A stretch of 23,645 nt of DNA, taken from the IMG/VR virus record IMGVR_UViG_3300042261_000412, positions 1 through 23,645 of that record, one strand, 5' to 3'. The notes under the pieces were generated by a model, which made no database searches, was not told where the DNA came from, and was given only the letters and a program-made list of their open reading frames with translations. Positions 3,361-20,983 of the stretch are shown one piece after another (the stretch's first letter is position 1; each line of letters opens with the position of its first letter). Source of the stretch: a virus. The position numbers and the translations under genes were made by a program.

Positions 3361-4360
3361 CCTGAAACCAACAGCGGCGATGGCCGACAACGCACGCCGC
3401 GGCCTGGCGCTACACGAAGATGGCTACAGCGGCGACGGCTTGAAGCCAGAGACAGTCAGGCGTGCCAACATCATCGCTGATCGTCAGGAGCTCACCGAAG
3501 ACCACGTGCGAGAGATGCGGGCATGGTTTGCCAGGCACGAGTCAGACAAACGGCCTGGCTGGGACGATCCTCCAACGCCAGGGTACACGGCCTGGCTTTT
3601 GTGGTCTGGCGATGAAGGCCAGGCGTGGTCAGAGCGTAAGGTTGCCGAGATGGACCGAGAATCCGAGAGGAGCGACGGCATGGACGCCAGCAACATTGAG
3701 CGACGCGATTGGCAGTTCGATTCCGATGACTGCCTTGCGGTTGAGACCCGCGGCGATGGCCGGCAGGTCGTCACCGGGTATGCAGTGAAATATCACACGC
3801 TCAGCGTCGATCTCGGCGGCTTCCGGGAAACGATTCTTCCTGGCGCTTTCGACAAGGTTCTCAATCGGCAGCGTGGCAAGCAGGACGTCGTGGCATTGTT
3901 CAACCATGACCCAAATCAACTTCTCGGACGCACCTCGAGCGGCACGCTTGAGTTGGCCAGCGACGACAAGGGGCTTCGGTACACGGTCGCGCTGCCAAAT
4001 ACCGAGCTCGGCCGGATGATCGCAGAGCACGTCGCTCGCCGCGATTTGGTCGGCAGTTCTTTCGCGTTCACGGTTGACCAGCGTGGCGAGTCGTGGGCTC
4101 CCGGTGACGACGGGAAGCCGCGACGCAGCATCCGTGAGGTCACAGGTCTCTATGACGTTTCTGTCGTGACTCACCCGGCCTACCCAAGCTCGACCACGAG
4201 CGTCGCCCGTCGCAGCTTGGAGCAGTGGTTAGCCTCTCAGGCGGAGGAGCAGCCTGCTCCTTCTGCCGAGGTGCTGGCCGACTCGCAGTTGGCGATGACT
4301 GCGTTTTTGCGGCTGCGTGCCGCGAAACTCAGGAGCCACACGCGTGGTCTCAGCAGGTAG
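3353..4360 (+). CDS. Prohead maturation protease (S78/HK97 type) with N-terminal extension
   Basis: This serine protease cleaves the capsid delta domain during head maturation. The protease domain covers about residues 120-285: TGYAVKYHTL, GGFRETILPGAF, the catalytic-type His185 in LFNHDPNQLLGR, the serine in DLVGSSFAF (235 or 236), and DVSVVTHPAYPSS. Before it lies an unusual helical region of about 110 residues with ARRGLALHEDGYSGDGL and REMRAWFARHESD. A similar extension is familiar to me from other environmental phage proteases, but its role is not clear. The start is ATG 3353, with AGGAG at 3341-3345 seven bases upstream; the reading frame is open further upstream, but that part only shadows the portal gene. 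It overlaps the portal by 8 bases. Confidence 0.9.
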   Translation: MADLKPTAAMADNARRGLALHEDGYSGDGLKPETVRRANIIADRQELTEDHVREMRAWFARHESDKRPGWDDPPTPGYTAWLLWSGDEGQAWSERKVAEMDRESERSDGMDASNIERRDWQFDSDDCLAVETRGDGRQVVTGYAVKYHTLSVDLGGFRETILPGAFDKVLNRQRGKQDVVALFNHDPNQLLGRTSSGTLELASDDKGLRYTVALPNTELGRMIAEHVARRDLVGSSFAFTVDQRGESWAPGDDGKPRRSIREVTGLYDVSVVTHPAYPSSTTSVARRSLEQWLASQAEEQPAPSAEVLADSQLAMTAFLRLRAAKLRSHTRGLSR

Positions 4361-5932: not shown

Positions 5933-6391
5933 ATGAACCACGGCCAGAACAACAAGTCTGTCGTTTCGATTTCCGCTGCGGCTGGTGTCGCGTCGGCCGG
6001 CACCCACACGGTGGCGATCGACTGCCTCGGCTACGACTCTGTGAGCATCGACGTCGGCTATCGCTCGATCGCCAACACGTCGGCTCCGAGCGTCGTGTCG
6101 GTCAAGCACAGCGACACGGACGGCAGCTACGGCACCATCGCGTCTCTGGTCCAGAGCACTGACTACACGCTGGCAGGCGTTGGCAACACCGCCACTGTCA
6201 ACGTGACGCGGTTTGAGATCAGCACCAAGGCGCTGAAGCGGTATCTGCAGGTGGCTGTCACGCCGTCCGCGGATGCCACGAGCAACGCGAGCAACAACAC
6301 CGTCGTCGTGGCGGCCCGCCTGGGTCGTGGCGAAGAGGGTATCGGCTCGGCCTCGGATGCGAACGTCACGAATCGCGTGGTGCTTGGCTGA
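5933..6391 (+). CDS. Putative virion structural protein next to the capsid gene
   Basis: The family is not recognised with certainty. The 152-residue protein is rich in S, T, V, A and N with alternating hydrophobic residues, as expected for an all-beta fold, and has almost no long helices. It is 24 bases after the major capsid gene with AAGGA (5921-5925) before the ATG. That position is typical of capsid decoration or head-fibre proteins. Decoration is therefore an inference from position and composition, not from a motif. A DUF-type adaptor protein is the alternative. Confidence 0.65.
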   Translation: MNHGQNNKSVVSISAAAGVASAGTHTVAIDCLGYDSVSIDVGYRSIANTSAPSVVSVKHSDTDGSYGTIASLVQSTDYTLAGVGNTATVNVTRFEISTKALKRYLQVAVTPSADATSNASNNTVVVAARLGRGEEGIGSASDANVTNRVVLG

Positions 6392-6434
6392 GCTAGTGGC
6401 GGACTGAACGACAACCTCAACGCAGGAGGATGCC

Positions 6435-7205
6435 GTGGGCGCGGCGTCATCGGCGATTGCGGGCATCAAGCCCGCTTTGCTCCAGACGAGCTCTGGACCG
6501 ATTCGCGTGCACTGTGCGATGTCGGTCCCTCGCCTTGGCTGGCAAGACCACATGTTTTGCTGGCCTAGGGGGCTGATTCCCTATGGCATCTCTCCGATTC
6601 GCCTGGAGGGTGCTTTCTGGGGGCAGTGCCTCGAGCGTGTTCTGACCGACATTGTCGAGGCAGACACGGACGACTCGCAGCCGCCGCTGTACTGCCTCGT
6701 TCTCGATTACGACTCAATCTTTGAGGCCGACGCAGTCCCCCGGCTTCTGACGTACACAGTTGCCAGTGGCTACGACTTCGTGGCGGCTGTGCAGATGAAG
6801 CGGCGAACTGACGAGCCGCTTTTCACGATGACGGCAGAGAGCGGCGAGAGGCTTGCCGAGGTCACTCGTGACCACCTGGTCTACCACAACGTGATCGGCG
6901 TCAACACGGCCCACTTTGGCTTCACGCTGCTGCGAGCCAATGCCCTCAAGAAGATGAAGCATCCGTGGTTCATCGGCAAGCCGAATGAACAGGGACGGTG
7001 GGATGACGGCCGCATCGACGACGACATCGCATTTTGGGTCGCGGCACAGAAGGCTGGGCTAAAGATCGGCGTCTGCCCGCGTGTCGTGCTAGGTCATGCT
7101 GAGGTCTGGCTGAAGTGGCCAGACCAGAACATGAAGTGCCTGCTGCAGCATCCAGGAGACTTCTGGGATCGCGGCGGAAAGCCACCGGAGAGCGTGTGGA
7201 GATGA
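6435..7205 (+). CDS. Glycosyltransferase-like protein (GT-A, DXD motif) in the head operon
   Basis: This 256-residue protein has the features of a GT-A glycosyltransferase: the metal and nucleotide-sugar binding motif DYD at 91-93 in CLVLDYDSIF, a following VPRLL helix, and a C-terminal IDDDIAFWVAAQKAGLKIGV (194-213) plus VVLGHAEVW (218-225), which match the acidic and GH signatures of family-2-like enzymes. Substrate and acceptor are unknown; glycosylation of virion protein, host surface or a base is possible. The start is GTG 6435 with AGGAGGA at 6424-6430. The ATG at 6430 is in another frame. It overlaps the next gene by 4 bases (ATGA), so it belongs to the head-connector operon rather than being an isolated insertion. 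Confidence 0.72.
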   Translation: MGAASSAIAGIKPALLQTSSGPIRVHCAMSVPRLGWQDHMFCWPRGLIPYGISPIRLEGAFWGQCLERVLTDIVEADTDDSQPPLYCLVLDYDSIFEADAVPRLLTYTVASGYDFVAAVQMKRRTDEPLFTMTAESGERLAEVTRDHLVYHNVIGVNTAHFGFTLLRANALKKMKHPWFIGKPNEQGRWDDGRIDDDIAFWVAAQKAGLKIGVCPRVVLGHAEVWLKWPDQNMKCLLQHPGDFWDRGGKPPESVWR

Positions 7206-9874: not shown

Positions 9875-10243
9875 GTGGCTCTCACTCGCGAGGAGATCAA
9901 GGCCAAGCGTGGCGTTAGGCCACGCGAGGCTGTTGACGTTCCTGAGCTCGGTGGCACGGTCTACGTGGCCAAGTTCTCGGCCAAGGACCGCGACCGATTT
10001 GAAGAGATCGTGACTGGGGGAATCCCAGGCAAGGTCAACCTGAGGAACGTCCGTGCCCAGGTGGCGACGCTTCTGTGCGTCAACGAGGATGGCACTCGGC
10101 TATTCGATGAGTCAGATGCCGAGTGGCTTGGAGACCTCGATACGGACGCCGTACAGAAGATCATTGACGCTGGGTTTCGGCTCAACGGCATCAAGGGCAA
10201 CGCAATCGAGGCCGCAGCGGGGGAATCGAACGGCGACCGGTGA
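9875..10243 (+). CDS. Tail assembly chaperone, gpG-like
   Basis: A 122-residue protein placed between the tube and tape-measure genes, where lambda-type phages encode the first tail chaperone. The domain with VDVPELGGTVYVAKFSAKDRDRFEEI and ATLLCVNEDGTRLFDESDAEWLGDLDTDAVQKIIDAGFRLNG is typical of phage tail assembly chaperones. The start is GTG 9875 with AGGAGG at 9861-9866, eight bases upstream. The next gene begins inside its stop codon (TGATG) in the -1 frame, like lambda G and T, although no canonical slippery heptamer is seen. Confidence 0.8.
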   Translation: MALTREEIKAKRGVRPREAVDVPELGGTVYVAKFSAKDRDRFEEIVTGGIPGKVNLRNVRAQVATLLCVNEDGTRLFDESDAEWLGDLDTDAVQKIIDAGFRLNGIKGNAIEAAAGESNGDR

Positions 10244-10527
10244 TGGCGTTCCTGTACCGGCTCGCCCTGAGACTTGGAATATGGGACGTCGAGGCACTCG
10301 CAGAGGCAATGTCAGTCGATCAGTTGTACGGATGGATGGGCTACTACCAACTGGAGCCATGGGGAGACGAGTGGCTGAGGTCTGCGATGGCGTTGTCGCA
10401 GTTCCAGAACGCACACCGCGGCAAGAAAAAGGCGCTACCTCCAGACCACTTCATGCCGGTTGAGAAGCGTCAGCAGACGCCGCAGCAGATGTGGCAGATC
10501 GTGAGCAGCATCCCAGTACCGCGGTGA
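10243..10527 (+). CDS. Second tail assembly chaperone, gpT-like
   Basis: A 94-residue protein whose YGWMGYYQLEPWGDEWLRSAMALSQFQNA (about residues 27-55) is the helical signature of lambda minor tail protein T-like chaperones, which act with gpG on the tape measure. ATG 10243 overlaps the upstream TGA by one base, so termination-reinitiation coupling is the simplest expression mode; a GTG one codon earlier is also possible. It ends 4 bases before the tape-measure gene. Confidence 0.8.
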   Translation: MAFLYRLALRLGIWDVEALAEAMSVDQLYGWMGYYQLEPWGDEWLRSAMALSQFQNAHRGKKKALPPDHFMPVEKRQQTPQQMWQIVSSIPVPR

Positions 10528-10531
10528 CGAC

Positions 10532-12064
10532 ATGGCCAACGAGTTCGGAAGGATACATGTCGGCATCTCGGCCAGCGTAGGCGGCCTGACGAAGGGGCTT
10601 AGTCAGGCATCCAGCCAGATTCAGTCTTTTGCCGGCACGGCTGGCAAGATGACAAAGGGTGCTGCCACTGGCTTTGCATCGCTGGCAGAAAACGCCCTTG
10701 GCTTCGGCCGTGCAGCGACTGTTGGTGCGGCCGGTGTGGCCATTCTTGCCGAATCTCTCCGTGGCCTGCTGCTGCCGCTCGGCATCATCGCTGCAATCAC
10801 GGCTCCGTTCGCTGCCTTTGCGCAGGCAACGCAGGCTGCAGAACAGCTGCACAACCTGTCGCGAGAGCTTGGCATCGCTGCAGGAGATCTGCAGGTGATG
10901 CAAATGGCCGCAGGAGAGGCAGGCGTTGATCAAGGTCAGCTGACCGCGGCCCTGCGCCGCACAGCACGAATGACCGGTGACCTGGCATCTGGTAGCAAAA
11001 GTGCTGCCAAGGCATTTTCGCAGCTCGGCCTTTCTGCGAGCGACTTTGTCGGACTGAACGCATCGCAGCAGTTTGCGTTGATCGCTGACCGTATTCGTGC
11101 ACTTCCGCCAGCCATGCAGGCGGCCGCGGCCGTCGACATCTTCGGCAAGCAGGGACAGTCGCTGCTGAACTTTGTTCGCGATGGAGGCGACTCTATTCGC
11201 GAGATGGACACGCTGCTGACGCAGTTAGGCGTCAAGATGAGTGGCCCGCAGGTTGCTGCTATTGAAATGATGGGCGACGCACTTGGTCGCCTTGAACTGC
11301 CCGTCCGTGGCTTCGTCAACCAGTTCCTTGCCGGCGTAGCACCGGCAATCACGACGACATCAAATCTGATCGTTGCGTTTTTTGCTGAGAACACGCAGGG
11401 CTGGACGGTCGCCAGTGCACTCGCGGAGGGATTCGTGCAGTCTCTGCGGCTTGTTGTTGGTGCCTTCACGCTGCTCTACGGAATCTTCCAAGTATTCCAG
11501 GCAGCCGTCATGAAGGTCGGCCAGCTGTTCTCAGACCTATTTTCCATCATCCTCGAGGGTGTCGCCAATGTCATGAGTTCCATGGCGACGCTGGCCGAGG
11601 CGAGCGGGTTTGACGACCTGGCCGACTCGCTGCGGTCAGGTGCGAAAGGCACCCGCAACATGGCCGATGCCGCTGGGAACGTAGGCACGCAGCTTGGTGA
11701 AGATGCAGGCAGGATGTTTGAGAACGCTGTTGAGAACATCACCAACCCGTTCGGCGCGTTTGATACGGAAATGGCCGCGGTTCGTGCCGCAGCGGCAGCC
11801 GCCGGCCAGCCAGCCGACAACGCAAGCATCGTCGCCCAGACCGTCGCAGCTTCGTCTAAGGAACTGCGGGCCGCGATTGCAGGAAGCGTCGAGGGTGACT
11901 CAATCAGAAATGCCATCCTCCGCGGGGATCCGCGAATGGAAGGCAGCGATGACGCCAAGCGTACCGCAGACGCTTCTGAGCGTGCGGTCGACGAGTTGGC
12001 GTCAATCAACAGTGCCCTGCGTGATGCTCAAGGGGTTGGCCAAGCACAGGTGGCATTGGTGTAA
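10532..12064 (+). CDS. Tail tape measure protein
   Basis: A 510-residue protein that sets tail length. It is alanine-rich and helical with the usual N-terminal repeats (LTKGLSQASSQIQSFAGTAGKM), hydrophobic segments at about 67-95 and 285-350, the LNLSRELGI-type motif AAEQLHNLSRELGIAAGDLQVMQMAAGEAGV, and DIFGKQGQSLLNFV, all seen in phage tape measures. By the usual rule of roughly 1.5 angstrom per residue, the tail would be about 75-80 nm, rather short for a siphovirus. It follows the chaperone pair by 4 bases. Confidence 0.9.
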   Translation: MANEFGRIHVGISASVGGLTKGLSQASSQIQSFAGTAGKMTKGAATGFASLAENALGFGRAATVGAAGVAILAESLRGLLLPLGIIAAITAPFAAFAQATQAAEQLHNLSRELGIAAGDLQVMQMAAGEAGVDQGQLTAALRRTARMTGDLASGSKSAAKAFSQLGLSASDFVGLNASQQFALIADRIRALPPAMQAAAAVDIFGKQGQSLLNFVRDGGDSIREMDTLLTQLGVKMSGPQVAAIEMMGDALGRLELPVRGFVNQFLAGVAPAITTTSNLIVAFFAENTQGWTVASALAEGFVQSLRLVVGAFTLLYGIFQVFQAAVMKVGQLFSDLFSIILEGVANVMSSMATLAEASGFDDLADSLRSGAKGTRNMADAAGNVGTQLGEDAGRMFENAVENITNPFGAFDTEMAAVRAAAAAAGQPADNASIVAQTVAASSKELRAAIAGSVEGDSIRNAILRGDPRMEGSDDAKRTADASERAVDELASINSALRDAQGVGQAQVALV

Positions 12065-12066
12065 GC

Positions 12067-12993
12067 ATGGCAATCCGCGACGTACGGCAAATCCGTGGGA
12101 TTAGGCTGACAGAGTCCAAGTCGGACAAGGGAACTGTCACGTACGAAGGCAGCCTAGAGCTCCTGGTGCTGTCCACGATCAAGGATGAGTCGTTCGCGAC
12201 CATCATGAACGACACGGCTACCTGGCCCAACTTCTTCGGGCGAGCCATTCCGCAGATCAACGACGTTGAGTACGTGGGCGACGTTGAGCTCTACGTCGAG
12301 TCGCGGGACTTTGAGTACCTCGATCCGGAGGTGAACGAGTTCGCGATAAAGGTCACCGTCAACTACATCGGCAAGCCGGCCGAGTGGGGTTCTGAAAAGC
12401 CTCCTGAACCTGACCCGGTCAACAACAAGCAAGAGTTTTTCAAGCGAATCTCAATTCAGGCTGTTCAAGAGCGGCGTGTCGCATCTGAGTCCAGGCAAGA
12501 CGACAACACGCAGGCGGCAAAGCCGATCGTCAATTCGGCTGGTGATCCAGTAGACGGGCTCGAGGAAGAGACGGCCCTGCTGCGGCTGACCTATACAAAC
12601 GCCAGATGCCCTGATCCAGATTTCAAAACGCTCTTTTCGTACATGAACACGTGCAACCAGTTTGAGTTCGCCGACTGTGCGGCGTACACGCTGCGGGTGA
12701 CTGGGTACGGGTGCGAGTTCGACGAAAAAAACCAGGTGTACACGGTCAACATTGAATACACGTACAACCCAATGACCTGGAAAATCCCGTATTACGACGT
12801 CGGATACAACGAGCTCGTCGGCGGGCAGCGACAGGCGATTCTCGACAAGTCTGGAAACCCTGTTTCCAAGCCAGTCCCTCTGAGCGACACAGGCGCGGCG
12901 AAAGCCGCAGGACTTTCGCCAAGCATCCTGACCGCCTCACCCTATGAGCGGAAGGACTTCACGAACATGCTCAGAGAATGCCGCGTGCTATAG
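12067..12993 (+). CDS. Probable distal tail protein, family unknown
   Basis: I do not recognise a family. The 308-residue protein starts 2 bases after the tape-measure stop, where distal tail or baseplate hub proteins are normally encoded. It is acidic and beta-rich, with aromatic-rich strands (DVELYVESRDFEYLDPEVNEFAIKVTVNYIG and YTVNIEYTYNPMTWKIPYYDVGYNE), a charged linker at about 115-160 and four scattered cysteines between residues 179 and 220. A tail tip role is inferred from place and composition only. Confidence 0.6.
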   Translation: MAIRDVRQIRGIRLTESKSDKGTVTYEGSLELLVLSTIKDESFATIMNDTATWPNFFGRAIPQINDVEYVGDVELYVESRDFEYLDPEVNEFAIKVTVNYIGKPAEWGSEKPPEPDPVNNKQEFFKRISIQAVQERRVASESRQDDNTQAAKPIVNSAGDPVDGLEEETALLRLTYTNARCPDPDFKTLFSYMNTCNQFEFADCAAYTLRVTGYGCEFDEKNQVYTVNIEYTYNPMTWKIPYYDVGYNELVGGQRQAILDKSGNPVSKPVPLSDTGAAKAAGLSPSILTASPYERKDFTNMLRECRVL

Positions 12994-13002
12994 GAGGTGG
13001 TC

Positions 13003-13380
13003 ATGGCCGACGAGATCTCTGTATCGCTGAATCTATCTGTCAACAACGGCAACCATGTGGAGTCGTTTTCGGCGGCCGGCAAGGTCAGCCAGAACAACTC
13101 CGCAGCAATCTCGCAGGTGCTGACCGTGGCCACTGCGACGCAGACGCTATCGCTTGGTGCCGTCACGACTGCGGGATGGGCCGCATTTAGGAACCTAAAC
13201 ACGGCCACCAGCGGCACTGCATACGTGACGCTTGGTGCCTACGACGGGACCAACATGCAGGAGTTCGCCCGCATGAATCGCGGCGAATCAGCCGTTGTCA
13301 GGCTGATGCCGACCATCACCCTGGCTGCGAAGAGCTACGGATCGGCACAGCGAATCCGCTATGTCTGCCTCCAGGATTGA
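13003..13380 (+). CDS. Small beta-rich virion protein, family unknown
   Basis: No family recognised. The 125-residue protein is rich in S, T, A, N and V, with alternating strands and few charges, typical of small virion or tail accessory proteins. AGGAGG at 12992-12997 overlaps the stop codon of the upstream gene and fixes the start at ATG 13003, rather than the in-frame GTG at 12997. It is followed after 3 bases by another small beta-rich gene. Confidence 0.65.
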   Translation: MADEISVSLNLSVNNGNHVESFSAAGKVSQNNSAAISQVLTVATATQTLSLGAVTTAGWAAFRNLNTATSGTAYVTLGAYDGTNMQEFARMNRGESAVVRLMPTITLAAKSYGSAQRIRYVCLQD

Positions 13381-13383
13381 GCC

Positions 13384-13734
13384 GTGGCTGACACATTCGG
13401 ATTCTCGCTGAACGATGCCAAGCGGATCGGCAAGACGGTTCGCGTGGTGGAGCGTTCAGACTCACGCGACCGGGTGCCGGCACGAGACGACACGCTTTCT
13501 AGGGCGGTTCGCATTGTCATCGGTAAGTCAGGGACAGCCTCGTGGTCTAAGGGGGCGTCCAAGACGGTCACGATATACGGGGGCGCTCCAAGCACGACAG
13601 GGTTAGGCACGGTTAGCGCTGTCACTGTCACTGCTTGGAATGTGTTTGCAACGCTTGCGACTGCTTCAGCCGATCGAACTGTGGCTCTCAGCAACAACGG
13701 CTGGGGCTGGTACTTGATCGCTGCGGAGTGCTGA
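13384..13734 (+). CDS. Small beta-rich virion protein with GTG start, family unknown
   Basis: No family recognised. The 116-residue protein has a charged N-terminal third (NDAKRIGKTVRVVERSDSRDR) and a beta-rich remainder with SGTASWSKGASKTVTIYGG and aromatic WGWYLIAAE at the end. The GTG at 13384 lies 3 bases after the previous stop. Its composition and place suggest a tail or receptor-region structural protein. Confidence 0.6.
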   Translation: MADTFGFSLNDAKRIGKTVRVVERSDSRDRVPARDDTLSRAVRIVIGKSGTASWSKGASKTVTIYGGAPSTTGLGTVSAVTVTAWNVFATLATASADRTVALSNNGWGWYLIAAEC

Positions 13735-13736
13735 TT

Positions 13737-14447
13737 GTGGCAATGCTAGGGGCACCGTGCTCGCCGTGCTGTGGCGTTGATTGCGACGCCATTAAAAACG
13801 CCAGCACAATCGAACTAACTATCGAAGCTACTGACTATTTGCTTCAAGAAAAGCAGAAGTGGAAGAACGCTCGATACCAGTTCGCACAAAACGATCCAAT
13901 CGGGTTCAACTACTGCTGGCCAGGTGCTCAGTTTTCTGGCACGCTTTCGTTGACGCAGACAACGGCCGACGCTGGAGCGTATCGGACTTGGCGCTACGAC
14001 TACTCAAACACTGGGCAAATCTGCGGAACAAACTTCATCAAGGCTAGTTTTTTAGTTGCAACAACATCACCGCAAAGCCCAGCAAAACTTCGGATCACGT
14101 GCGGGCTCAAGTACCATCAGTATTGCGAATACGCGAGCGAAACTTACAAAAACGTAGCTGAGTTTGATTGCACTACGTCGCAAATCGCTATTGTTGGAGT
14201 GCCAGCGACTCTAAATCCCACATTGCAAAAAAAAGCAATTGAGTCTGCGTGGCCGGATAACGCGTTTCCATTTCACGTATTCTCGTGCGACAGCGGGAAG
14301 TTTGTGTTTCCGGATGTGACGCGAGAAGTGTACGTAGGGCCATGCAGTCAGTTCTGCGATGAGAAAGGTTGCGATATTCAGTTGGTTTCAACAACTGCAA
14401 ACACTGGCTCAAAAAACCTGACTGTGAAGGGAATTACATACACATAG
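13737..14447 (+). CDS. Cysteine-rich protein of AT-richer composition, unknown function
   Basis: No family recognised. The 236-residue protein contains 13 cysteines, clustered at the N-terminus (APCSPCCGVDC) and at the C-terminus (GPCSQFCDEKGC), which suggests several disulphides or a metal site. The coding sequence uses more A and T, with AAA, ACA and GCA codons and A-runs, than any neighbour, so it was probably acquired recently. The start is GTG 13737 with GGAG at 13725-13728; ATG 13743 is the alternative. It lies at the end of the tail genes, where receptor-binding or adhesion proteins occur, but this is inference. Confidence 0.62.
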   Translation: MAMLGAPCSPCCGVDCDAIKNASTIELTIEATDYLLQEKQKWKNARYQFAQNDPIGFNYCWPGAQFSGTLSLTQTTADAGAYRTWRYDYSNTGQICGTNFIKASFLVATTSPQSPAKLRITCGLKYHQYCEYASETYKNVAEFDCTTSQIAIVGVPATLNPTLQKKAIESAWPDNAFPFHVFSCDSGKFVFPDVTREVYVGPCSQFCDEKGCDIQLVSTTANTGSKNLTVKGITYT

Positions 14448-14449
14448 CT

Positions 14450-14833
14450 ATGACGACGGACTGCAACATCGACCCTCATTCGCTGAAATGCACCGTTTGC
14501 GGCGGCACTGTTTCAGCGCCGCACGTGCGTCGCAACTGTGGCCGTTCAGCAGCCATGGCCAGCAGCTCTCCACCAACACCAGGACTTCCTGGGCAACACC
14601 TAAAGTCACAGCTTGCAGCCGTCGGATTTGCATACACGCCAGGGTGCGGATGTGCTGACAGGGCAAGCCAAATGGACGCATGGGGCAGCGACGAGTGCGA
14701 GCGACGCATTGACGAAATCGTCGGCTGGTTGCGTGAGGAGGCTGCTAGGCGACGGATCCCGTTCGTAAATGCACTTGGCCGGCTGCTGGTAAAGCGGGCA
14801 ATTCGTGCGGCCAGGCGTTCGGCAGCGGCTTGA
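14450..14833 (+). CDS. Small cysteine-rich protein with C-terminal helical domain
   Basis: A 127-residue protein with an N-terminal zinc-finger-like part (CTVC at 14-17, Cys30) and a second part GCGCADRASQMDAWGSDECERRIDEIVGWLREEA (65-98). That second pattern, paired cysteines followed by R..MD.WG...C....D.IV.WL, recurs in phage proteins of unknown role and looks like a small metal-binding helical module. ATG 14450 lies 2 bases after the preceding stop; an upstream in-frame part merely overlaps the previous gene. The basic C-terminus (RLLVKRAIRAARR) could bind nucleic acid. Confidence 0.6.
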   Translation: MTTDCNIDPHSLKCTVCGGTVSAPHVRRNCGRSAAMASSSPPTPGLPGQHLKSQLAAVGFAYTPGCGCADRASQMDAWGSDECERRIDEIVGWLREEAARRRIPFVNALGRLLVKRAIRAARRSAAA

Positions 14834-14864
14834 CCGACCTGCCACCCTCGGAGCAGAGGAAGCC

Positions 14865-15152
14865 ATGCCCGAGGACCACCACTTTCGTATCTGCGGCCAG
14901 CGGTGGCTGCTGCGATTCACGCGACTGCGAGGGCAGGCGGCTGGATGGGCATACCTGCCCGATGCCAAGCGGCCAGAGATGCAGCGGAAGATCCTCGTCG
15001 ATTCGACCCTCACGGGCAGGGCTAAGGCAGAGACCATCGTGCACGAGGTGCTGCACGTGGCGTTTCCTACGGCCAGCGAGGAGCACATCACCGAGAGTGC
15101 CAGAGACCTGGCACGGGTTCTCTGGGCATTGGGCTACAGGGAGGGCAAATGA
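14865..15152 (+). CDS. HExxH zinc-metallopeptidase-like protein
   Basis: A 95-residue protein whose TIVHEVLHVAFP carries a HExxH zinc motif, followed by a helix with SEEHITESARDLARVL that could supply the third ligand. This resembles minimal phage-encoded gluzincin-like proteins, but proteolytic activity is not shown, and a structural zinc role is possible. The start is ATG 14865, with AGAGGA (about 14855-14860) upstream. Its last codons overlap the next start (ATGA). It opens the accessory operon that ends at 17139. Confidence 0.6.
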   Translation: MPEDHHFRICGQRWLLRFTRLRGQAAGWAYLPDAKRPEMQRKILVDSTLTGRAKAETIVHEVLHVAFPTASEEHITESARDLARVLWALGYREGK

Positions 15153-15409
15153 GCAAGAAGCGAACCCTGATGGACGAGGTGCTCGAGCGGATCCCGAAGA
15201 AGGGATTCAAGCCGTGGAACGAGCGGATCCCGCCTGACCTGCTTGCCGAGCTAGAGGCACTGCGTGCTGCCTTTTGGGCCGGCCAGATGCCGACACGCAC
15301 GACCAGGACAGGGCTCAGCCATGCCATATCCAAGAGCCTGCAGGAACGCGGCGTACACGTCGGACACGCTGGAGTGAACCGGTGGCTAGAAAAGCCAGAA
15401 AAAGCCTGA
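15149..15409 (+). CDS. Small basic hypothetical protein
   Basis: No family recognised. The 86-residue protein is basic and helical (LMDEVLERIPKKGFKPWNERIPPDLLAELEALRAAFWAG). The C-terminal half (GLSHAISKSLQERGVHVGHAGVNRWLEK) could form a DNA-binding helix-turn-helix, but the match is weak. The ATG overlaps the previous stop (ATGA), and its end overlaps the phosphoesterase gene by 28 bases. Tight coupling on both sides supports it as real. Confidence 0.6.
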   Translation: MSKKRTLMDEVLERIPKKGFKPWNERIPPDLLAELEALRAAFWAGQMPTRTTRTGLSHAISKSLQERGVHVGHAGVNRWLEKPEKA

Positions 15410-16461
15410 CTGCCGACGTGCACGCCGACCTGGCGAGTGCTCAGCAGCTGGCCGCCGACGCCGAGATGGCACGCCTACGCAGCGAGGTGTCGAGCCTGCG
15501 TGGACGCTATAAGGCGGCCCTCGAGCAGATTGACCGCGAGCGTGACCGGGCGGATGCCCTCGTCGCACTCAAGGACATGACGCCACAGCGGCCGCTGACC
15601 AAGGGCGTCAAAGGCAAGAAGCACGACGCCACCATGGTGGTGCTGCTATCGGACATTCACTGCGAAGAAACCGTGCGTCCCGAGACCGTCAACGGGCTCA
15701 ACACGTTTGACCTAGACGTGTGCCAAAAGCGACTCGACGAACTACAGGAGCGATTCTTCACGCTGCTCGAGCACGAGCGGCACCTCACCAAGATTGACCG
15801 CGTGCTCGTGTGGCTGGGCGGCGACATGATCAGCGGCATGATTCATCCCGAGCTCGCCGAGGAAAACAGCCTGCACCCGCTGGCTGCCATCCGGTGGATT
15901 GGCGAGCGCCTGCGTGGGTTCTTAGACGTTGTCGGTGAGCACGTCGGCCAGGTGGTCGTGGCCACCAGCTGCGGCAACCACGGCCGCACCACCGAGAAAC
16001 TACGGACAAACGAGGCCGACACGTCCTACGAGCACCACCTCTACCTGACGATGCAGGCCGCTGAGTCTCGGCCCAACGTCTCGTGGCAGGTGGGCGAGGG
16101 GCATTTGAACTACGTGGACCTCGACGGGTTTACCATCCGGTTCTGTCATGGGCACGCCATCCGCTACCAAGGTGGCATCGGCGGCATTCACGTGCCGCTC
16201 AACAAGGCCATCTCGGCCTGGGACGTGAACCACAGGGCACACCTGACGTGCATCGGACACTGGCATCAGTTCTCCTGGAGCCGCAGCGGACGCTACGTGA
16301 CCAACGGCTCGGTCATTGGACACTCGGCCTACGCTGTCCGAATCAAGGCGACCTACGAGCCACCGTGCCAAGCGGCGTTTATCGTCGACCACGGCCGCAA
16401 CGAGGTGACGCGGGCATACCCGCTGTTCTGCGACCGAGACCTACGAAAGGCGAAGAAGTGA
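15382..16461 (+). CDS. Calcineurin-like metallophosphoesterase
   Basis: A 359-residue protein with all motifs of the calcineurin-like phosphoesterase fold: DIH (91-93), GGD (146-148), GNHG (198-201), HGH (256-258) and GHWH (292-295), which hold the two-metal centre. Residues about 12-60 form a charged coiled coil. Related phage enzymes are often nucleases or phosphodiesterases in DNA metabolism, but the substrate here is unknown. The start is GTG 15382 with GGAG at 15371-15374; the longer open frame starting at 15274 only shadows the upstream gene. It shares GTGA with the next gene. Confidence 0.83.
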   Translation: MARKARKSLTADVHADLASAQQLAADAEMARLRSEVSSLRGRYKAALEQIDRERDRADALVALKDMTPQRPLTKGVKGKKHDATMVVLLSDIHCEETVRPETVNGLNTFDLDVCQKRLDELQERFFTLLEHERHLTKIDRVLVWLGGDMISGMIHPELAEENSLHPLAAIRWIGERLRGFLDVVGEHVGQVVVATSCGNHGRTTEKLRTNEADTSYEHHLYLTMQAAESRPNVSWQVGEGHLNYVDLDGFTIRFCHGHAIRYQGGIGGIHVPLNKAISAWDVNHRAHLTCIGHWHQFSWSRSGRYVTNGSVIGHSAYAVRIKATYEPPCQAAFIVDHGRNEVTRAYPLFCDRDLRKAKK

Positions 16462-16943
16462 CGACGACGATTGAGCAGGCGAACGAAACGATGCGGCAGG
16501 CAGTGCGTGAGCGGATGATGGCCACGCCGGCGAATGACCCGAAGCTGGTGGGCTACCGGATCGACCAAGGCGACCAGGAGCCGTCGTGCTGCGAGGGACA
16601 GCGGTTCTGCGGCGATGGGCTTCTGAGGTCGCAGACGCACCCGACGTCGCAGGCGTTCTACGATTTGTGCGACGCGATGAAGGAGATGCACCGCCGCAAG
16701 AGCAGCGACTACGGGTGCCCGACCGGCACTGATCCACTGGCGAACATCCGCAACGGTGCGAGGTTTGTCGGCATCCCGGCATGGAAGGGTGCCATGGTGC
16801 GACTGAGCGACAAGATGACTCGACTCGCTGCGTACAACGCCACGGGCCGGCTGGAGAACGAGTCGCTCGAAGACAACCTCATTGATCTCGCCAGCTACAG
16901 CCTGCTGGCCCTGCTACTGCACCGTGAGGAGCACGGTGCCTAA
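16458..16943 (+). CDS. DUF1599 / nucleotide modification associated domain 1-like protein
   Basis: A 161-residue protein. Residues 70-157 match the DUF1599 (Nmad1) pattern: FYDLCDAMKEMHRRKSSDYG, then DPLANIRNGARFVGIPAWKGAMVRLSDKMTRL, then ENESLEDNLIDLASYSLLALLL. These helical proteins are related to MazG-like NTP pyrophosphatases and often accompany DNA base or nucleotide modification genes in phages. Substrate unknown. GTG 16458 overlaps the phosphoesterase stop (GTGA), with AAGG upstream. It overlaps the last operon gene by 8 bases. Confidence 0.76.
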   Translation: MTTTIEQANETMRQAVRERMMATPANDPKLVGYRIDQGDQEPSCCEGQRFCGDGLLRSQTHPTSQAFYDLCDAMKEMHRRKSSDYGCPTGTDPLANIRNGARFVGIPAWKGAMVRLSDKMTRLAAYNATGRLENESLEDNLIDLASYSLLALLLHREEHGA

Positions 16944-17139
16944 TCCCCTCACCGACGCCTACCTACTCGAGGCCGAGATGGACGCTAGGCGATTTCAGGG
17001 TGCCTATACGGGGACGTCGGGCACGCTGGCGGCTCACGTCATGCGGCTCCTAGGCGAGATCAGCCGAGTGCGTGGCGAGCTCGCCGTTGAGCGGGCCAGG
17101 GCGTCTGAACGACTGACGTGGCGCGAGCCACGAGACTGA
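16936..17139 (+). CDS. Small helical protein, end of the late operon
   Basis: A 67-residue protein without a recognised family. It is predicted helical and charged (HVMRLLGEISRVRGELAVERARASERL looks coiled-coil). The start is GTG 16936, with GAGGAG at 16925-16930 five bases upstream; an earlier in-frame ATG at 16882 would overlap the previous gene by 62 bases. It is the last plus-strand gene before the cassette array, followed by a long hairpin. Confidence 0.6.
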   Translation: MPNPLTDAYLLEAEMDARRFQGAYTGTSGTLAAHVMRLLGEISRVRGELAVERARASERLTWREPRD

Positions 17140-17199: not shown

Positions 17200-17308
17200 G
17201 TTCACGGCCGTCGCGTTATGCAGCAGCTGATCGCGTTTCACTGCCGCGTTGCGCTGATGTCGCTGGCAAATCGGCTGTTATGCAGGTCCGGAGAAACACT
17301 GGTTCCAC
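17200..17308. other. Left edge of the cassette array, degenerate attC-like remnants
   Basis: The array's first core site is GTTCCAC at 17302-17308, preceded by CCGGAGAAACACTG, which resembles an attC right half-site, but no left arm with AAC is present. Upstream, GTTATGC occurs twice (17215-17221, 17277-17283), and pieces such as GCGCTGATGTCGCTGGC (17251-17267) resemble right halves of the attC sites in the array. This may be a decayed attC or the original insertion point. I see no gene in 17140-17311. Confidence 0.4.
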
Positions 17309-17311
17309 TGC

Positions 17312-18058
17312 CTAAAACAGAACCCCTTGGCTCAACCGCTTGGCGGCGATCTCGCAATACCGCTCCTCGACCTCGATGCCGACCGCACGCCGGCCTTCAA
17401 CCTTGCACGCGAGCAACGTTGTCCCGCTGCCCATGAACGGGTCGAGCACCGTTTCGCCTGCGTCCGTGCTTATGCCGATCAACTGCCGAAGCAACCCCAC
17501 CGGCTTCACGGTGGGATGCTGCGGGTCCATCGTCGCCGACCAATCGTGCCGAATCACCGTGCGAGGCCGTTTCCCGTTCAGCTTCCGGCGGCCCTTCATC
17601 CCATAGAAGATCGCCTCCCATGCCTCGCCGAAGCCGCACTCCAGGTCGCCAACGGTCCCACGGTCGCCCTTGTCCCAGGCAATCGTGTGCTTGGCGTTTC
17701 CGATGATGGGAAGCATTTCGTGAATCTTCCTTGGCGACGCAAAAACGTACCAATGGCGGTCCGCGTGAAGCAGCCGAAGGCAGTGCGGCCATGCGGCCGC
17801 GAAAGCCTTCAGGCTCTCGTCGTTTGCTATCGGCTTTCGGAGCTTGTCTTCTCTCGCCCGCCAAGACGTGACGTAGGCGACACCGTATGGCGGATCAGTC
17901 AGCACAAGGTCGATGGATTCGTCAGGAAACCCGGCAAGAATCTCTCGGCAGTCCCCGTGATAGATCGTGATGCCATCCTTCTCGTAGTAGGGCTGCCTCA
18001 ACGCTACGGCAGTGGAACCAGCCGATGCAACGGACGGCCCTGCTACGTCATGCGTCAT
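17312..18058 (-). CDS. DNA adenine methyltransferase (beta-type motif order), cassette 1
   Basis: This 248-residue enzyme should methylate adenine N6 in DNA using SAM. The catalytic DPPYG is at 55-59, and the SAM-binding DPFMGSGTT is at 206-214 followed by AVGIEVEERYCEIAAKRL. Catalytic motif before SAM motif is the beta order, and DPPY favours N6-adenine. HPTVKP (181-186) is also typical. The ATG 18058 lies in the loop of attC 1 with GGGGA seven bases upstream on this strand, so residues 1-14 (MTHDVAGPSVASAG) are attC-encoded. TTG 18001 is an alternative start outside the stem but lacks a ribosome binding site. No cognate restriction gene is adjacent, so it may be an orphan protecting phage DNA. 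Confidence 0.85.
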   Translation of the reverse strand: MTHDVAGPSVASAGSTAVALRQPYYEKDGITIYHGDCREILAGFPDESIDLVLTDPPYGVAYVTSWRAREDKLRKPIANDESLKAFAAAWPHCLRLLHADRHWYVFASPRKIHEMLPIIGNAKHTIAWDKGDRGTVGDLECGFGEAWEAIFYGMKGRRKLNGKRPRTVIRHDWSATMDPQHPTVKPVGLLRQLIGISTDAGETVLDPFMGSGTTLLACKVEGRRAVGIEVEERYCEIAAKRLSQGVLF

Positions 18059-18100
18059 GGTGAGTCCCCGCGTGGCCGCCGTTGATCTTCCGTGTTCTCA
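18012..18100 (+). repeat. attC-like site 1
   Basis: An 89-bp imperfect palindrome. R'' is GTGGAAC (18012-18018) and R' is GTTCTCA (18094-18100). The stem pairs CAACGG plus CGGCC on the left with GGCCG plus CCGTTG on the right, with an unpaired A between the two left segments and an unpaired G after GAT. The loop holds GGGGA and the ATG of the methyltransferase on the minus strand. The CAACGG/CCGTTG pair differs from the other sites in a compensated way. Confidence 0.83.
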
Positions 18101-18451
18101 GCCTAGCCGTTCCAGCAATCCTCTCAGAATCTTTGACGCCGGTGCGGTCTGCCAATGCGTAGCACATACCTCAATCGCCGCTCGCTCCTCGTCCGTCAGC
18201 GTCCCGTCCATCGTCACCGTCACCACGCAACTCCCGTCTCGCTTGCAGAGGAGAGACAGCGTTGCGTCCTGCTCGGCCAGGCGGCGGATCGCCTCACGCA
18301 GCCTCTCAATCTCAGACGCAGCCTCCTCCAAAATGTCGTCGTCCGTCAGCAGCAGCGGCTCGCCTGTGTGTCCGTACTGTCGTAGCCTTGTCGTAATGTC
18401 TGCCATGTGAGAACCACGCGATGCAGCGGACATCTCATCACCGTCGCTCAT
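18098..18451 (-). CDS. Small coiled-coil protein, cassette 2
   Basis: No family recognised. The 117-residue protein has a central acidic coiled coil (DDDILEEAASEIERLREAIRRLAEQ), then a beta-like SCVVTVTMDGTLTDEERAAIEV. It resembles small phage or host proteins with an N-terminal ADITTRLR start, of unknown role. The chosen start is ATG 18451 in the attC 2 loop, with AGGAG eight bases upstream, giving MSDGDEMSAASRGSH before the conserved-looking MADITTRL. ATG 18406 would give that shorter form but has no ribosome binding site. The stop codon overlaps the R' box of attC 1. Confidence 0.6.
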   Translation of the reverse strand: MSDGDEMSAASRGSHMADITTRLRQYGHTGEPLLLTDDDILEEAASEIERLREAIRRLAEQDATLSLLCKRDGSCVVTVTMDGTLTDEERAAIEVCATHWQTAPASKILRGLLERLG

Positions 18452-18496
18452 GTATCAATCTCCTGTGTTCGATGCCGCTGATCGCTGGCGTTCTCT
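18408..18496 (+). repeat. attC-like site 2
   Basis: An 89-bp palindrome. R'' is TGAGAAC (18408-18414) and R' is GTTCTCT (18490-18496). The stem CAGCGG-A-CATC pairs with GATG-CCGCTG, and the outer GCGAT pairs with ATCGC with an unpaired G. The loop carries AGGAG and ATG (18451) on the minus strand, in frame with the 117-residue protein. Confidence 0.85.
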
Positions 18497-18579
18497 CAAT
18501 GAATGTTGCCGGTTACCGGAGTCCGGCGCAGGCGTATAGCCCCTGCGGTGTCGCCTCTGTGGCGGGTTCCACGTCGGCC

Positions 18580-18765
18580 CTACGTCGCGTCCCCATTTTG
18601 CTCTGGCTGCCGGCTTTGCGACATCTTTCGAAGTGCCTCAAGCCATTTCTCCTCTCGCTCGTTCGCCTCTCGCGTCAACTGAGCCGCCTTCTGATACTCA
18701 GCCGACCCGTCATCTTTGATCTCCCATTGGATGCCCGTCTCGTTCTGTGTCACTTTCGCTTTCAT
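18580..18765 (-). CDS. Small charged protein, cassette 3
   Basis: A 61-residue protein with no recognised family. It is highly charged and helical (YQKAAQLTREANEREEKWLEALRKM). It is the one cassette gene whose start lies outside its attC: ATG 18765 is preceded by AGGAGG six bases upstream on the minus strand, in the short segment between the gene and the R'' box of attC 3. About 80 bases separate its stop from the R' box of attC 2; they hold a short CCGGT/ACCGG palindrome and no gene. Confidence 0.55.
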   Translation of the reverse strand: MKAKVTQNETGIQWEIKDDGSAEYQKAAQLTREANEREEKWLEALRKMSQSRQPEQNGDAT

Positions 18766-18778
18766 GGATGCCTCCTAG

Positions 18779-18868
18779 AGAGAACCACGCGATGCAGCGG
18801 ACCCGCGATGCCGCCGTCTGGTTGTAGTTTCGTCAGCGGTCGCGGGCCGCTGATCGCTGGCGTTATGC
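18779..18868 (+). repeat. attC-like site 3
   Basis: A 90-bp palindrome. R'' is AGAGAAC (18779-18785) and R' is GTTATGC (18862-18868). It has the longest inner stem of the set: CAGCGG-A-CCCGCGA pairs with TCGCGGG-CCGCTG. The outer GCGAT/ATCGC pair and unpaired G are as in site 2. Unlike the other four, its loop has no ribosome binding site or ATG on the minus strand, and the reading phase used by the others meets a stop just past R''. Confidence 0.86.
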
Positions 18869-18876
18869 CCCTGTCT

Positions 18877-19143
18877 TCATTCACGCGACTCGGCAAACTC
18901 TTCCACAAGGTCTGCGAACGCCTTGCCAGCCGCTGACTGCACCAACTCAACGTATTTTTCCAAAGCCGCCAATCGCTTCGCGCACTCGTCAAGCAAGTCG
19001 GCCGCCTCCTGCACGCGAAAGCGAACGTAGGGCTGGAGCGTGTCGATGCCGGACTTGGGATCGTCCAACACCATCACGCGCAGGCAGGCACCGGAGATTT
19101 CCGGTAGGTGCGCGAACGTCTCGTAATGCTGCTTCTCTTCCAT
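18877..19143 (-). CDS. Small helical protein, cassette 4
   Basis: An 88-residue protein with no recognised family. It is acidic and helical in the second half (VQEAADLLDECAKRLAALEKYVELVQSAAGKAFADLVEEF). The start is uncertain: ATG 19143 has AAAGGG about 11 bases upstream, and GTG 19152 would add three residues but is too close to that site. A short reading frame starting in the attC 4 loop ends 29 bases upstream, so translation may be coupled to it. The stop is 9 bases from the R' box of attC 3. Confidence 0.55.
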   Translation of the reverse strand: MEEKQHYETFAHLPEISGACLRVMVLDDPKSGIDTLQPYVRFRVQEAADLLDECAKRLAALEKYVELVQSAAGKAFADLVEEFAESRE

Positions 19144-19171
19144 ATATTTCACTGCCCTTTCTGTGTGTCAC

Positions 19172-19222
19172 TCAGGCATAACCAGCGGATGCAGCGGACG
19201 GCTCCTCGTTGTCGTTCGTCAT
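19172..19222 (-). CDS. Sixteen-residue leader reading frame from attC 4
   Basis: The loop of attC 4 contains AGAGGA and ATG (19222) on the minus strand, in the same layout as sites 1, 2 and 5. Reading through the attC arm gives MTNDNEEPSAASAGYA and then TGA, instead of joining the downstream gene. It could be a translated leader upstream of cassette 4's protein, or a remnant of an earlier in-frame fusion. Expression is not shown by sequence alone. Confidence 0.35.
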   Translation of the reverse strand: MTNDNEEPSAASAGYA

Positions 19223-19264
19223 GGTTCGTCCTCTCGTCGCCGCCGCTGATCCTGCGTGTTATGG
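19176..19264 (+). repeat. attC-like site 4
   Basis: An 89-bp palindrome. R'' is GCATAAC (19176-19182) and R' is GTTATGG (19258-19264). The stem CAGCGG-A-CGGC pairs with GCCG-CCGCTG, and GGAT pairs with ATCC around an unpaired G. Spacings are 8 bases from AAC to the unpaired base and 9 bases from the right L box to GTT, the same as in the well-known aadA attC. The loop holds a ribosome binding site and ATG on the minus strand. Confidence 0.87.
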
Positions 19265-19277
19265 CTACCGTTCGTCC

Positions 19278-19799
19278 TCATTGGATGGCGATCATCTGCC
19301 CGACGTATCGCAGGCAGTCCCCGAAGTCGTACGCCGTTTCCGGTTCGCTCTCTTCCCAGAACGCCAACTTCTCCTTCAGGTGGTATCTGACGAAGTCGTC
19401 GTCCGCGACGAGCCGGTGAGCATCAAACCACCAGCCCCACCGGTTCTCGATCACGACCATCTCGTCGTTGAACTTGACGGCCCACACGCCAAACGACTTG
19501 TGAACCTTCCAGCCCTCATCTGTGTCGTCCCGCTCGATCATGTCGGCCGGGAATATGACGGCGTCCGACTTGCGGCCGTTGCACGTCACGCACGCCGCCA
19601 CAAGGTTGCATGGGTTGTCGCTCCCGTATCTTGATCGCGGGATCAGGTGATCTACTTCGAGGTTCTCCGATCCAGGCCGAGCCCCACAGTAGCGGCATGT
19701 GAAGTTGTCCCGATGGAGAATCTTGAACTTCTCCCGCCTCTCGATCCGCCAGCCATAACCAGCGGATGCAGAGGACCGCTCCTTTACCTTTCGTGGCAT
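19278..19799 (-). CDS. HNH endonuclease, cassette 5
   Basis: A 173-residue protein with a complete HNH core: CRYC (35-38), LEVDHLIPRSRYGSDNPCNLV (48-68, with D50-H51 and Asn65), then CVTCNGRK (70-77), giving the zinc-binding CxxC pairs and the metal-binding His. It should nick or cut DNA; it could be a homing-type, restriction or packaging-associated enzyme. Residues about 90-173 are an aromatic-rich domain I do not recognise. The start is ATG 19799 in the attC 5 loop, with AAAGGA seven bases upstream, so MPRKVKERSSASAG is attC-encoded. The longer open frame from 19916 overlaps the recombinase gene and is rejected. Confidence 0.85.
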   Translation of the reverse strand: MPRKVKERSSASAGYGWRIERREKFKILHRDNFTCRYCGARPGSENLEVDHLIPRSRYGSDNPCNLVAACVTCNGRKSDAVIFPADMIERDDTDEGWKVHKSFGVWAVKFNDEMVVIENRWGWWFDAHRLVADDDFVRYHLKEKLAFWEESEPETAYDFGDCLRYVGQMIAIQ

Positions 19800-19841
19800 A
19801 GTGAATCCTTTCGTCGCGGCCTCTGATGCTGCGTGTTCTAC
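19753..19841 (+). repeat. attC-like site 5
   Basis: An 89-bp palindrome. R'' is CCATAAC (19753-19759) and R' is GTTCTAC (19835-19841). The stem CAGAGG-A-CCGC pairs with GCGG-CCTCTG, a compensated change relative to the CAGCGG/CCGCTG of other sites. The loop holds AAAGGA and the ATG of the HNH gene on the minus strand. R' ends 8 bases before the stop codon of the recombinase gene. No matching GTAGAAC box was found beyond it, so this is the right edge of the array. Confidence 0.85.
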
Positions 19842-19849
19842 AAGGCTTG

Positions 19850-20821
19850 TCACCTCGGCTTCCCTGGGCCGCCGGACTCGTCTTCTGGAGGCTTGCCGTC
19901 TTCTGGCCGTTCCCAAGACAGGTCGAGCGGTGGCAGTAGGTCGGCCGCAGACGGCCCTCGACGCACGATGCTGGGGTCTAGGTACGACTTCTTTGTCGTG
20001 CTCGGGCGGTCGTGGTCGAGGTGCTCCGTAGCGTCCCCGCCGGCAGCCGTCAGGTATGAGGCCGATGACCGCCGGAATCCGTGAAAGCCCCTATAAGTCA
20101 CGCCAGACGTCTTGCAGAGGATCCGGAGCGACGACCACAGAGCGCCCTTTGTCCTGTGCTTCACCCACGGCCACACCAGATCCGACGGCTGGTGCAGTCC
20201 CTGCCGTTTGCCGAGCAGGTCGGCTAGCTGCTGGGTGATGCTCCGCTCAATGTCTCGCGTGTGGCCCTTGCGGTTCTCTGCTCGGAACAGCATCGCCCGC
20301 CGCTCTAGGTCGACGTCCTGCCACCGGATGGACAGCAGGGCGTTGATCCGTTCCGCCGTGAGCCAGGCTGCCCACGGTAGTGTCATCCAGAACCACCTAG
20401 CAGGGATGTCTCCAATCCTGCCGACGCGGATCGTGGCGTGCCGCACCAGGGCCTGGACCTCGGCGTGCGTGTAGGCCCTGGGGATTCGCTCTAGTGGCCG
20501 CATTTTGGGCAGCTCGAGGAACTCTGCAATCAGGCGTTTCCTCGCTGCATACGTGGCGATAGCGACCAGCTGGGTGCGGTCCTTGAGCACCGAGCCATGC
20601 GAGGGCACTTTGCCGTTGTGCGGCGTTTTGGCCCTCCACCGCAGGAACCTCACGACCGTCAGATCCGTGAGGTCGTCGGTGGTCGCGTCACGCCGGCGGC
20701 CTTCCTCGGCCTCAAGAAAATCTTCTAGTCGGTCGATGGTCCAGCCGTATAGGCGGACTGTTTTCTCGGAGAGATCGTGGAGGGGCGCGTATCGATTCAA
20801 CAAGAGCTCTTTGAGTGTCAT
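19850..20821 (-). CDS. int: Tyrosine recombinase (phage integrase)
   Basis: A 323-residue protein of the tyrosine recombinase family. An N-terminal SAM-like core-binding domain spans about 1-110. The catalytic domain shows R158 (LTAERINALLSIRWQDVD), K185 (RKGH), H247-x-x-R250 (HGFRRSSASYL), H270 and nucleophile Y280 (KSYLDP). The tail is proline- and acid-rich. It should integrate the phage chromosome. It lacks a clear IntI-type inserted segment between the lysine and HxxR motifs, so it is not obviously an integron integrase. The start is ATG 20821, with AAAGG about 9 bases upstream; an upstream in-frame ATG (20983) adds 54 residues across the promoter palindrome and is rejected. Confidence 0.9.
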   Translation of the reverse strand: MTLKELLLNRYAPLHDLSEKTVRLYGWTIDRLEDFLEAEEGRRRDATTDDLTDLTVVRFLRWRAKTPHNGKVPSHGSVLKDRTQLVAIATYAARKRLIAEFLELPKMRPLERIPRAYTHAEVQALVRHATIRVGRIGDIPARWFWMTLPWAAWLTAERINALLSIRWQDVDLERRAMLFRAENRKGHTRDIERSITQQLADLLGKRQGLHQPSDLVWPWVKHRTKGALWSSLRILCKTSGVTYRGFHGFRRSSASYLTAAGGDATEHLDHDRPSTTKKSYLDPSIVRRGPSAADLLPPLDLSWERPEDGKPPEDESGGPGKPR

Positions 20822-20861
20822 GACTTCGCCTTTCGCTTCTGTTTTTAGGTATGGCAGCATA

Positions 20862-20877
20862 GTGTACAAACGTACAC
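20862..20877. promoter_or_regulatory. Perfect palindrome in the integrase promoter region
   Basis: GTGTAC-AAAC-GTACAC is a perfect 6-bp inverted repeat with a 4-base spacer, 41 bases upstream of the integrase ATG. On the minus strand, CACTATGCT just downstream of it could be part of a -10 element, so a bound dimer would block or modulate integrase transcription. The cognate regulator is unknown. Confidence 0.55.
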
Positions 20878-20953
20878 ACACGCCATAGACTGAACGCAAG
20901 CGGGCGTCCCATGCCCTCCGCTCATACTTTGCATCCGTTCTCGGGATTTTTGC

Positions 20954-20983
20954 ATGGTCGGGGACTGGAAATCCGCCGACCAT
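20954..20983. repeat. Eight-bp inverted repeat between integrase and early region
   Basis: ATGGTCGG (20954-20961) and CCGACCAT (20976-20983) form a perfect inverted repeat with a 14-base spacer. It lies in the integrase-regulator intergenic region, where attP or operators are often found. The spacer is longer than the usual overlap region of a tyrosine recombinase core site, so attP is only one possibility. Confidence 0.4.

Follow-up and report, generated by a model that had tools for sequence, protein, structure and literature searches.

The window, as we call the whole stretch of 23,645 bases analyzed here (IMG/VR virus record IMGVR_UViG_3300042261_000412), carries on its + strand genes for a large terminase (TerL), an HK97-type capsid, tail proteins and RecT. 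Between its late operon, the last stop of which lies at 17139, and a recombinase gene with its stop at 19850, it harbors an array of five units that a previous sequence-only reading had taken for integron cassettes, on account of five attC-like palindromes of 89-90 bp. Five attC sites of that length, all of them + oriented, are recovered here with a covariance model (R1) built from 47 bacterial sites, none of phage origin, from which phage-like-looking sites had been excluded and several of which come from arrays beside intI. Run over the whole window with filters off, R1 returns exactly these five + sites (E values from 1e-23 to 2e-7), the next match having E=0.01: attC1 at 18012..18100 (43.5 bits, E=3e-13, also seen in the fold), attC2 at 18408..18496 (61.9 bits, E=5e-20), attC3 at 18779..18868 (71.7 bits, E=1e-23), attC4 at 19176..19264 (52.5 bits, E=1e-16) and attC5 at 19753..19841 (27.7 bits, E=2e-7, with a compensated arm, GCAGAGGAC / GCCTCTGAT). 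Scoring by an attC model had been named beforehand as a check on the palindromes; with every site scored by a model of bacterial derivation, their identification as real attC sites is, on sequence grounds, confirmed.

The architecture of these sites agrees with this identification. Folds, covariation and R1 all depict an imperfect palindrome of R''/R' and L''/L', one arm of which bears extrahelical bases, and a terminal structure that varies. In a set of 63 viral sites, 99% of the inner stem is paired, two-sided changes occur in 173 cells as against 66 after shuffling, and sliding the arms destroys the stem signal. Covariation analysis leaves G16 and A23 unpaired, and it is the presence of an extrahelical G and A on one arm that sets the direction of attC as +. 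The strict RYYYAAC/GTTRRRY consensus is not matched, only AAC/GTT being strictly kept (e.g. GTTCTCA, GTTCCAC), and a strict search for RYYYAAC..GTTRRRY finds only a chance pair at 12225-12289. We treat this motif as a consensus and not as a strict criterion because it is not followed by many of the bacterial sites in A2 either. A de novo finder applied to other intI arrays gave only 5 sites in six loci, and a classical attC model based on these was abandoned. Some attC sites in L246, L267, L009 and other loci (L numbers designate the loci compared) are short, at 49-57 nt; they have the same arms but almost no terminal structure and share their arrays with 89-nt sites.

Each unit opens with a heptamer, GTTCCAC (17302), GTTCTCA (18094), GTTCTCT (18490), GTTATGC (18862) and GTTATGG (19258), and, as had been noticed from the sequence, the heptamer is in all five the exact reverse complement of the R'' of its own unit. 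The window is thus made of G|TT-bounded units whose ends are complementary in the manner of circle closure. The same match over seven of seven positions is found in 182 of 226 non-redundant internal units of viral contigs, whereas 2000 shuffles give a mean of 29.7 and a maximum of 45, so chance can be excluded. The block had been placed at 17303-19841; its five units stand, but the first begins one base further left, at 17302.

All five units are + oriented and all five of their genes lie on the - strand. Cassette 1 (17302..18093), with R'' GTGGAAC and a 14-nt perfect inverted repeat around its heptamer, encodes a putative N6/N4 DNA methyltransferase (17312..18058; PF01555 E=4e-28, phrog_67 E=3e-65), the start codon of which lies inside attC1 (MTHDVAGPSVASAGST...). 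Cassette 2 (18094..18489, heptamer matched) holds a gene of no assigned function (18098..18451) starting inside attC2 (MSDGDEMSAASRGS...), and cassette 3 (18490..18861, heptamer matched) a small open reading frame (ORF; 18580..18765) that starts just outside attC3 with its own Shine-Dalgarno (SD) sequence and whose direction, judged by ORF length, is a tie. Cassette 4 (18862..19257), the body of which recurs at 87% identity in phage G055 (L191), contains a gene without assigned function in ORF calls and domain searches (18877..19152), preceded by a 16-residue leader peptide (MTNDNEEPSAASAGYA; 19172..19222, - strand) that is encoded by attC4 and stops at R''. Finally, cassette 5 (19258..19834, heptamer matched) carries a putative HNH endonuclease gene (19278..19799; PF01844 E=2e-11) starting inside attC5 (MPRKVKERSSASAGYGW...). 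The genes hence run opposite to the + attC sites, four of which contain an SD-ATG on the - strand, and the usual, if not strict, arrangement of a gene that follows the direction of its attC and is readable from Pc at attI, which bottom-strand selectivity normally brings about by inserting cassettes for expression from Pc (PMC8946536), is not found.

This reversal extends well beyond the window. Judged by the longest ORF, a measure that is noisy at 60% G+C, the 226 viral units comprise 184 reversed, 13 canonical and 29 tied cases, as opposed to 9, 22 and 10, respectively, in chromosomal arrays. Among the 184 reversed genes, 134 have their start within their own attC, and in 115 of these it falls in the same frame; the attC loop then holds a Shine-Dalgarno sequence and an ATG, and the arm is translated as a tag (e.g. 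MTNDNEEPSAASAG or MSDGDEMSAASRGS) whose consensus over 118 cassette proteins is M....D..E.S.AS.GS. Window cassette 4 differs in that its tag is the separate leader described above, not fused to the gene. The hairpin, if formed on the mRNA, may present the start site in its loop.

Going beyond what had been read previously, the array begins at a conserved attI-like site (17206..17304, +), the core of which, GTTATGCAGGTCCGGAGAAACACTGG|TT, occupies 17277-17304, with a half-site, GTTATGCAGC, lying upstream of it at 17215-17224; the crossover would be expected between 17302 and 17303. The name attI-like is preferred because no intI adjoins the site, and none is found in the window record. A profile derived from the left array edges of 22 other phages, the window excluded, matches 17206-17304 with E=1.7e-15 and ends exactly at the GTT of unit 1. 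The sequence left of unit 1, which directly precedes the first cassette, is common to many phages; such a site occurs on one side of the arrays only, and phages that clearly differ in gene content share it. The profile yields 88 matches in viral loci, and for 62 of these an attC follows on the same strand at no more than 2 kb. Searched against 0.9 Mb of bacterial loci, it matches best at the attI-side array edges of chromosomal integrons, in L203, L102, L111, L205 and perhaps L083. Three of these (L203, L205 and L102), from Planctomycetota, have an intI next to attI, this gene being 79-100% identical to that of L203 and interrupted in L102. Of 297 genomes of the planctomycete order, four contain the attI core with up to three mismatches, against none with a reversed-pattern control. 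A second, different attI type (GGTGTTAG.CCG.ACT.AGTGCG.CTCAATT) is seen at the left edges of phage L188 and of host integron L208.

Comparison of relatives reveals cassette exchange at precisely this point. When IMG/VR was scanned by pattern, one arm variant was found in 55 stretches and another in at least 120; of 40 contigs tested with the attC model, 38 contain arrays, the longest with 10 sites, and in 83 new loci the model adds 218 sites, no locus having more than 15. Loci L020 and L275 show no difference in the 2,962 bp that lead up to the attI GTT and in 982 bp beyond it, L020 having in addition one 788-bp unit that begins with GTTCGCC and ends in an attC with R'' GGCGAAC. In L214, L219 and L025, identity of about 99.5% over 4.8 kb extends up to ...AACACTGG|TT and is followed by three different cassettes, and in some 60 further pairs similarity is lost within a few bases of the attI GTT. 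Like the body of cassette 4, which has other neighbors in L191, other cassettes recur in different company. The earlier claim that the array is mobile is therefore borne out by exact cassette differences at G|TT, and a block that stays constant among near relatives, named beforehand as the contrary outcome, is not what we find: near-identical phages of the family gain, lose and swap cassettes at the recombination point. Exact single-unit mobility is seen in these relatives and not in the window itself, for whose phage no near-identical record was found. In L226 (6117) and L273 (reverse strand, 6820), which share a flank of more than 96% identity and four cassettes, one locus carries three more cassettes at attI, and the two differ to the left of attI as well. 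Phage-type attC sites also occur in very large viral records, namely L288 (205 kb), L266 (204 kb), L232 (168 kb) and L248 (146 kb).

Taken together, we consider it likely, with a probability of about 0.8, that the array is a phage-borne integron platform without an integrase, composed of an attI-like site and five cassettes that would be recombined by IntI acting in trans and whose reversed genes would be read through from phage operons. Cassettes would enter and leave by integron recombination, the folded bottom strand of attC reacting with attI or with another attC and crossing over at G|TT, and the infected cell, most likely a planctomycete, would supply IntI. The genes point towards attI, and for most of them both the Shine-Dalgarno sequence and the start codon lie in the terminal loop of the gene's own attC, so that each cassette would be a self-contained translation unit; since translation would proceed through the attC arm, the protein would carry an attC-encoded tag of some 15-20 residues. 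Expression would depend on phage transcription reading through from the far end, here probably that of the integrase transcript, and not on Pc at attI. About 71% of the ORF length in flanks on either side of arrays is co-directional with the cassette genes, indicating that arrays lie mostly inside co-directional operons; the left flank of the window array, unlike most, is convergent, and a scan for promoters and terminators gave results close to shuffled expectation. The benefit to the phage might be access to methylases and other accessory functions on demand, and the whole suggests that viruses make use of the bacterial system for shuffling genes to keep a stock of cassettes for themselves.

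Regarding the enzyme, the IntI-specific domain TIGR02249 has no match in the window record, and no integron integrase scores above cut-off in 91 viral records (41+50); the complete integron, defined by an intI with that domain, is thus absent from the window. Gene calls, the attC model and this lack of a TIGR02249 match uphold the previous description of an array without integron integrase set between a late operon and a phage-type integrase. Chromosomal arrays with the attC type of the window do stand beside intI in Planctomycetota assemblies such as JAGYJY010000007 (L202) and CAIXGY010000019 (L201), and phage-like reversed cassettes beside intI occur in chromosomal integrons of a Planctomycetaceae metagenome-assembled genome (MAG; L204) and of Cyanobium sp. 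FGCU52 (L209), with the proviso that MAG contigs may be contaminated. Because no intI above cut-off was found in the viral records, only 25 of 41 contain a phage recombinase, phage attI resembles host attI beside intI, and phage-like cassettes are found in chromosomal integrons beside intI, catalysis by host IntI in trans is the best-supported inference. Several points weigh against this interpretation: the R1 training sites were gathered with a pattern from the arms of the window (attC1 and attC5 fall outside that pattern), the host attI matches are moderate (E from 2e-4 to 5e-2), the viral records are mostly fragments, so that some could hold intI elsewhere, and the phage tyrosine recombinases (PF00589) of 25/41 viral records (about 60%) might take part.

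That last possibility can be developed into an alternative in which a phage-encoded tyrosine recombinase catalyzes cassette recombination. The window itself offers a candidate, a phage-type enzyme (19850..20983, -; PF00589 E=1e-10, phrog_1) whose gene ends 8 bp to the right of attC5. This enzyme is not an IntI, however, nor is any of the other phage recombinases, and 16 of the 41 records, some of over 50 kb, contain no PF00589 recombinase at all; as a general cassette enzyme a phage recombinase was accordingly rejected for not being universal. The last late-operon gene to the left of the array (16882..17139, +) has a homologue in relative G068 (L061), whose integrase is 49% identical, and there only 77 bp separate the stops of the two genes, with no array between them, while attI and one cassette lie elsewhere, far from the integrase. 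Coupled with the likeness of phage attI to host attI beside intI, these data make the alternative improbable. Passive capture, in which a piece of a host chromosomal integron was caught by illegitimate or homologous recombination as an ordinary cluster of attC sites lacking an integron integrase (CALIN, in IntegronFinder terms), with no later cassette traffic, would explain the presence of the same attC and attI types in Planctomycetota chromosomes, and off-target capture has been proposed for some phages by Qi et al. (PMC9892861). The opposite polarity of phage and chromosomal cassettes (184:13 versus 9:22, reversed to canonical) and an attI type common to phages of clearly different gene content make it quite improbable nonetheless, and the exact differences at attI between near-identical phages (L020/L275 and L214/L219/L025) already contradict it for the family. 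That the palindromes are phage regulatory hairpins or terminators, duplicated with the genes and merely attC-like, is scarcely credible, for, even if such a hairpin separates each gene from the next and often includes the ribosome-binding site and start codon of the gene that follows, R'' matches R' in 182 of the 226 units, a chromosomal attC model fits them, single units are inserted or deleted exactly at G|TT and an attI-like site is present on one side only, all of which already contradicts this view.

The window phage is probably temperate, judging from its TerL, capsid and tail genes, RecT and tyrosine recombinase, and its host is most likely a planctomycete. Its terminase family is present in 17 of the 41 records. 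Against isolate phages, its integrase finds no match and the array DNA matches the methylase gene only; a tape-measure search of 397 genomes of the planctomycete order gives matches of just 24-37% identity, too weak for host assignment. On the bacterial side, L204 (G005:C92, Planctomycetaceae C1_MAG_00073) has a phage-type reversed cassette at 109-538, in second position of an integron beside intI. L209 (G006:C39), a chromosomal-looking contig, shows at 10050-15724 an intI followed by reversed phage-type cassettes, as well as a canonical 763-bp cassette repeated in tandem with 100% identity, in which we read what looks like a toxin-antitoxin pair with a MazF-like protein. The same cassette, at 93% identity, is found in viral L180 (unit 1943, - strand) and in L210 (G006:C13; unit 17791, - strand), a Cyanobium sp. 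FGCU52 contig with a truncated intI. In L202, a Pirellulales chromosomal integron, a 703-bp cassette is exactly duplicated at 2827-3529 and 5958-6660.

Given a platform served by host IntI, one may tentatively postulate, as a proposal that falls a little short of even odds, that phage and host share a recombination system (attI and attC types, and the IntI of the host) while polarity keeps two cassette pools apart, phage cassettes being silent behind the host Pc and host cassettes silent in the phage. Pointing to attI and having their own start codon inside attC, phage cassettes would be read only in a phage operon, and from this it would follow that attC acts as a coding module adding a common N-terminal tag to unrelated proteins. 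No report of reversed cassettes with start codons inside attC, nor of a recurrent phage-borne attI family, was found in a literature search that left most subscription papers and preprints outside its reach.

Integron parts in phages, on the other hand, are already known. Qi et al. 2023 (PMC9892861) described integrons, CALINs and attC sites in phages, 21 of which had integron parts, and the view that arrays within phages are rarely described is right in substance. Their phages, temperate and virulent alike, resemble ours in carrying attC arrays that lack intI, in their methylase cassettes and, for Shewanella prophage M16-3, in a CALIN that has an attI of its own. They are, however, single cases of mostly ordinary structure, whereas the family of environmental phages analyzed here recurs in more than 100 viral stretches, with a shared attI type, genes that are reversed and start inside attC, and near-identical members that differ by exact cassettes. 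Compared with the earlier sequence-only reading, what is added here are the attI-like site, the reversed genes with their starts inside attC, and the evidence of mobility. The term CALIN-like, applied before, holds insofar as the array has two or more attC sites and lacks an intI in its vicinity, but it undersells the array because an attI-like site is retained, where relatives show current cassette exchange. That attC sites have been attributed to Planctomycetes is likewise known (PMC8352920), and the sedentary chromosomal integrons of Planctomycetota have the same attC arms, length and extrahelical bases and a related attI; they differ in having intI beside the array and mostly canonical cassettes, whereas phage arrays are without intI and their cassettes reversed. 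Hitcher genetic elements (PMC11389934) also use the machinery of a helper in trans, but the borrower here would be a whole phage whose accessory genes are changed by the recombination system of the host. If this holds true, integrons would be a system shared by bacteria and viruses, in which viruses swap accessory genes singly by means of a bacterial enzyme (DNA methylases, Mom-like modification, HNH nucleases and many small proteins), and there would be a clear reason for integron cassettes turning up in phages. The family would then allow the passage of cassettes between viral and chromosomal DNA to be studied, and it would represent a new architecture, the recombination site doubling as the translation start of the gene that it moves. 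Standard attC x attI assays can put its predictions directly to the test.

As regards cargo, the 118 cassette proteins include 14 of DUF551, four C5 methylases, four N6/N4 methylases and single Mom, Dam, HNH and AP2 proteins, the majority having no recognized function; the window contributes its N6/N4 methylase and its HNH protein, and methylases were also observed in phage cassettes by Qi et al. (PMC9892861). DUF551 is hence the commonest recognizable cargo of the viral cassettes (alignment A4).

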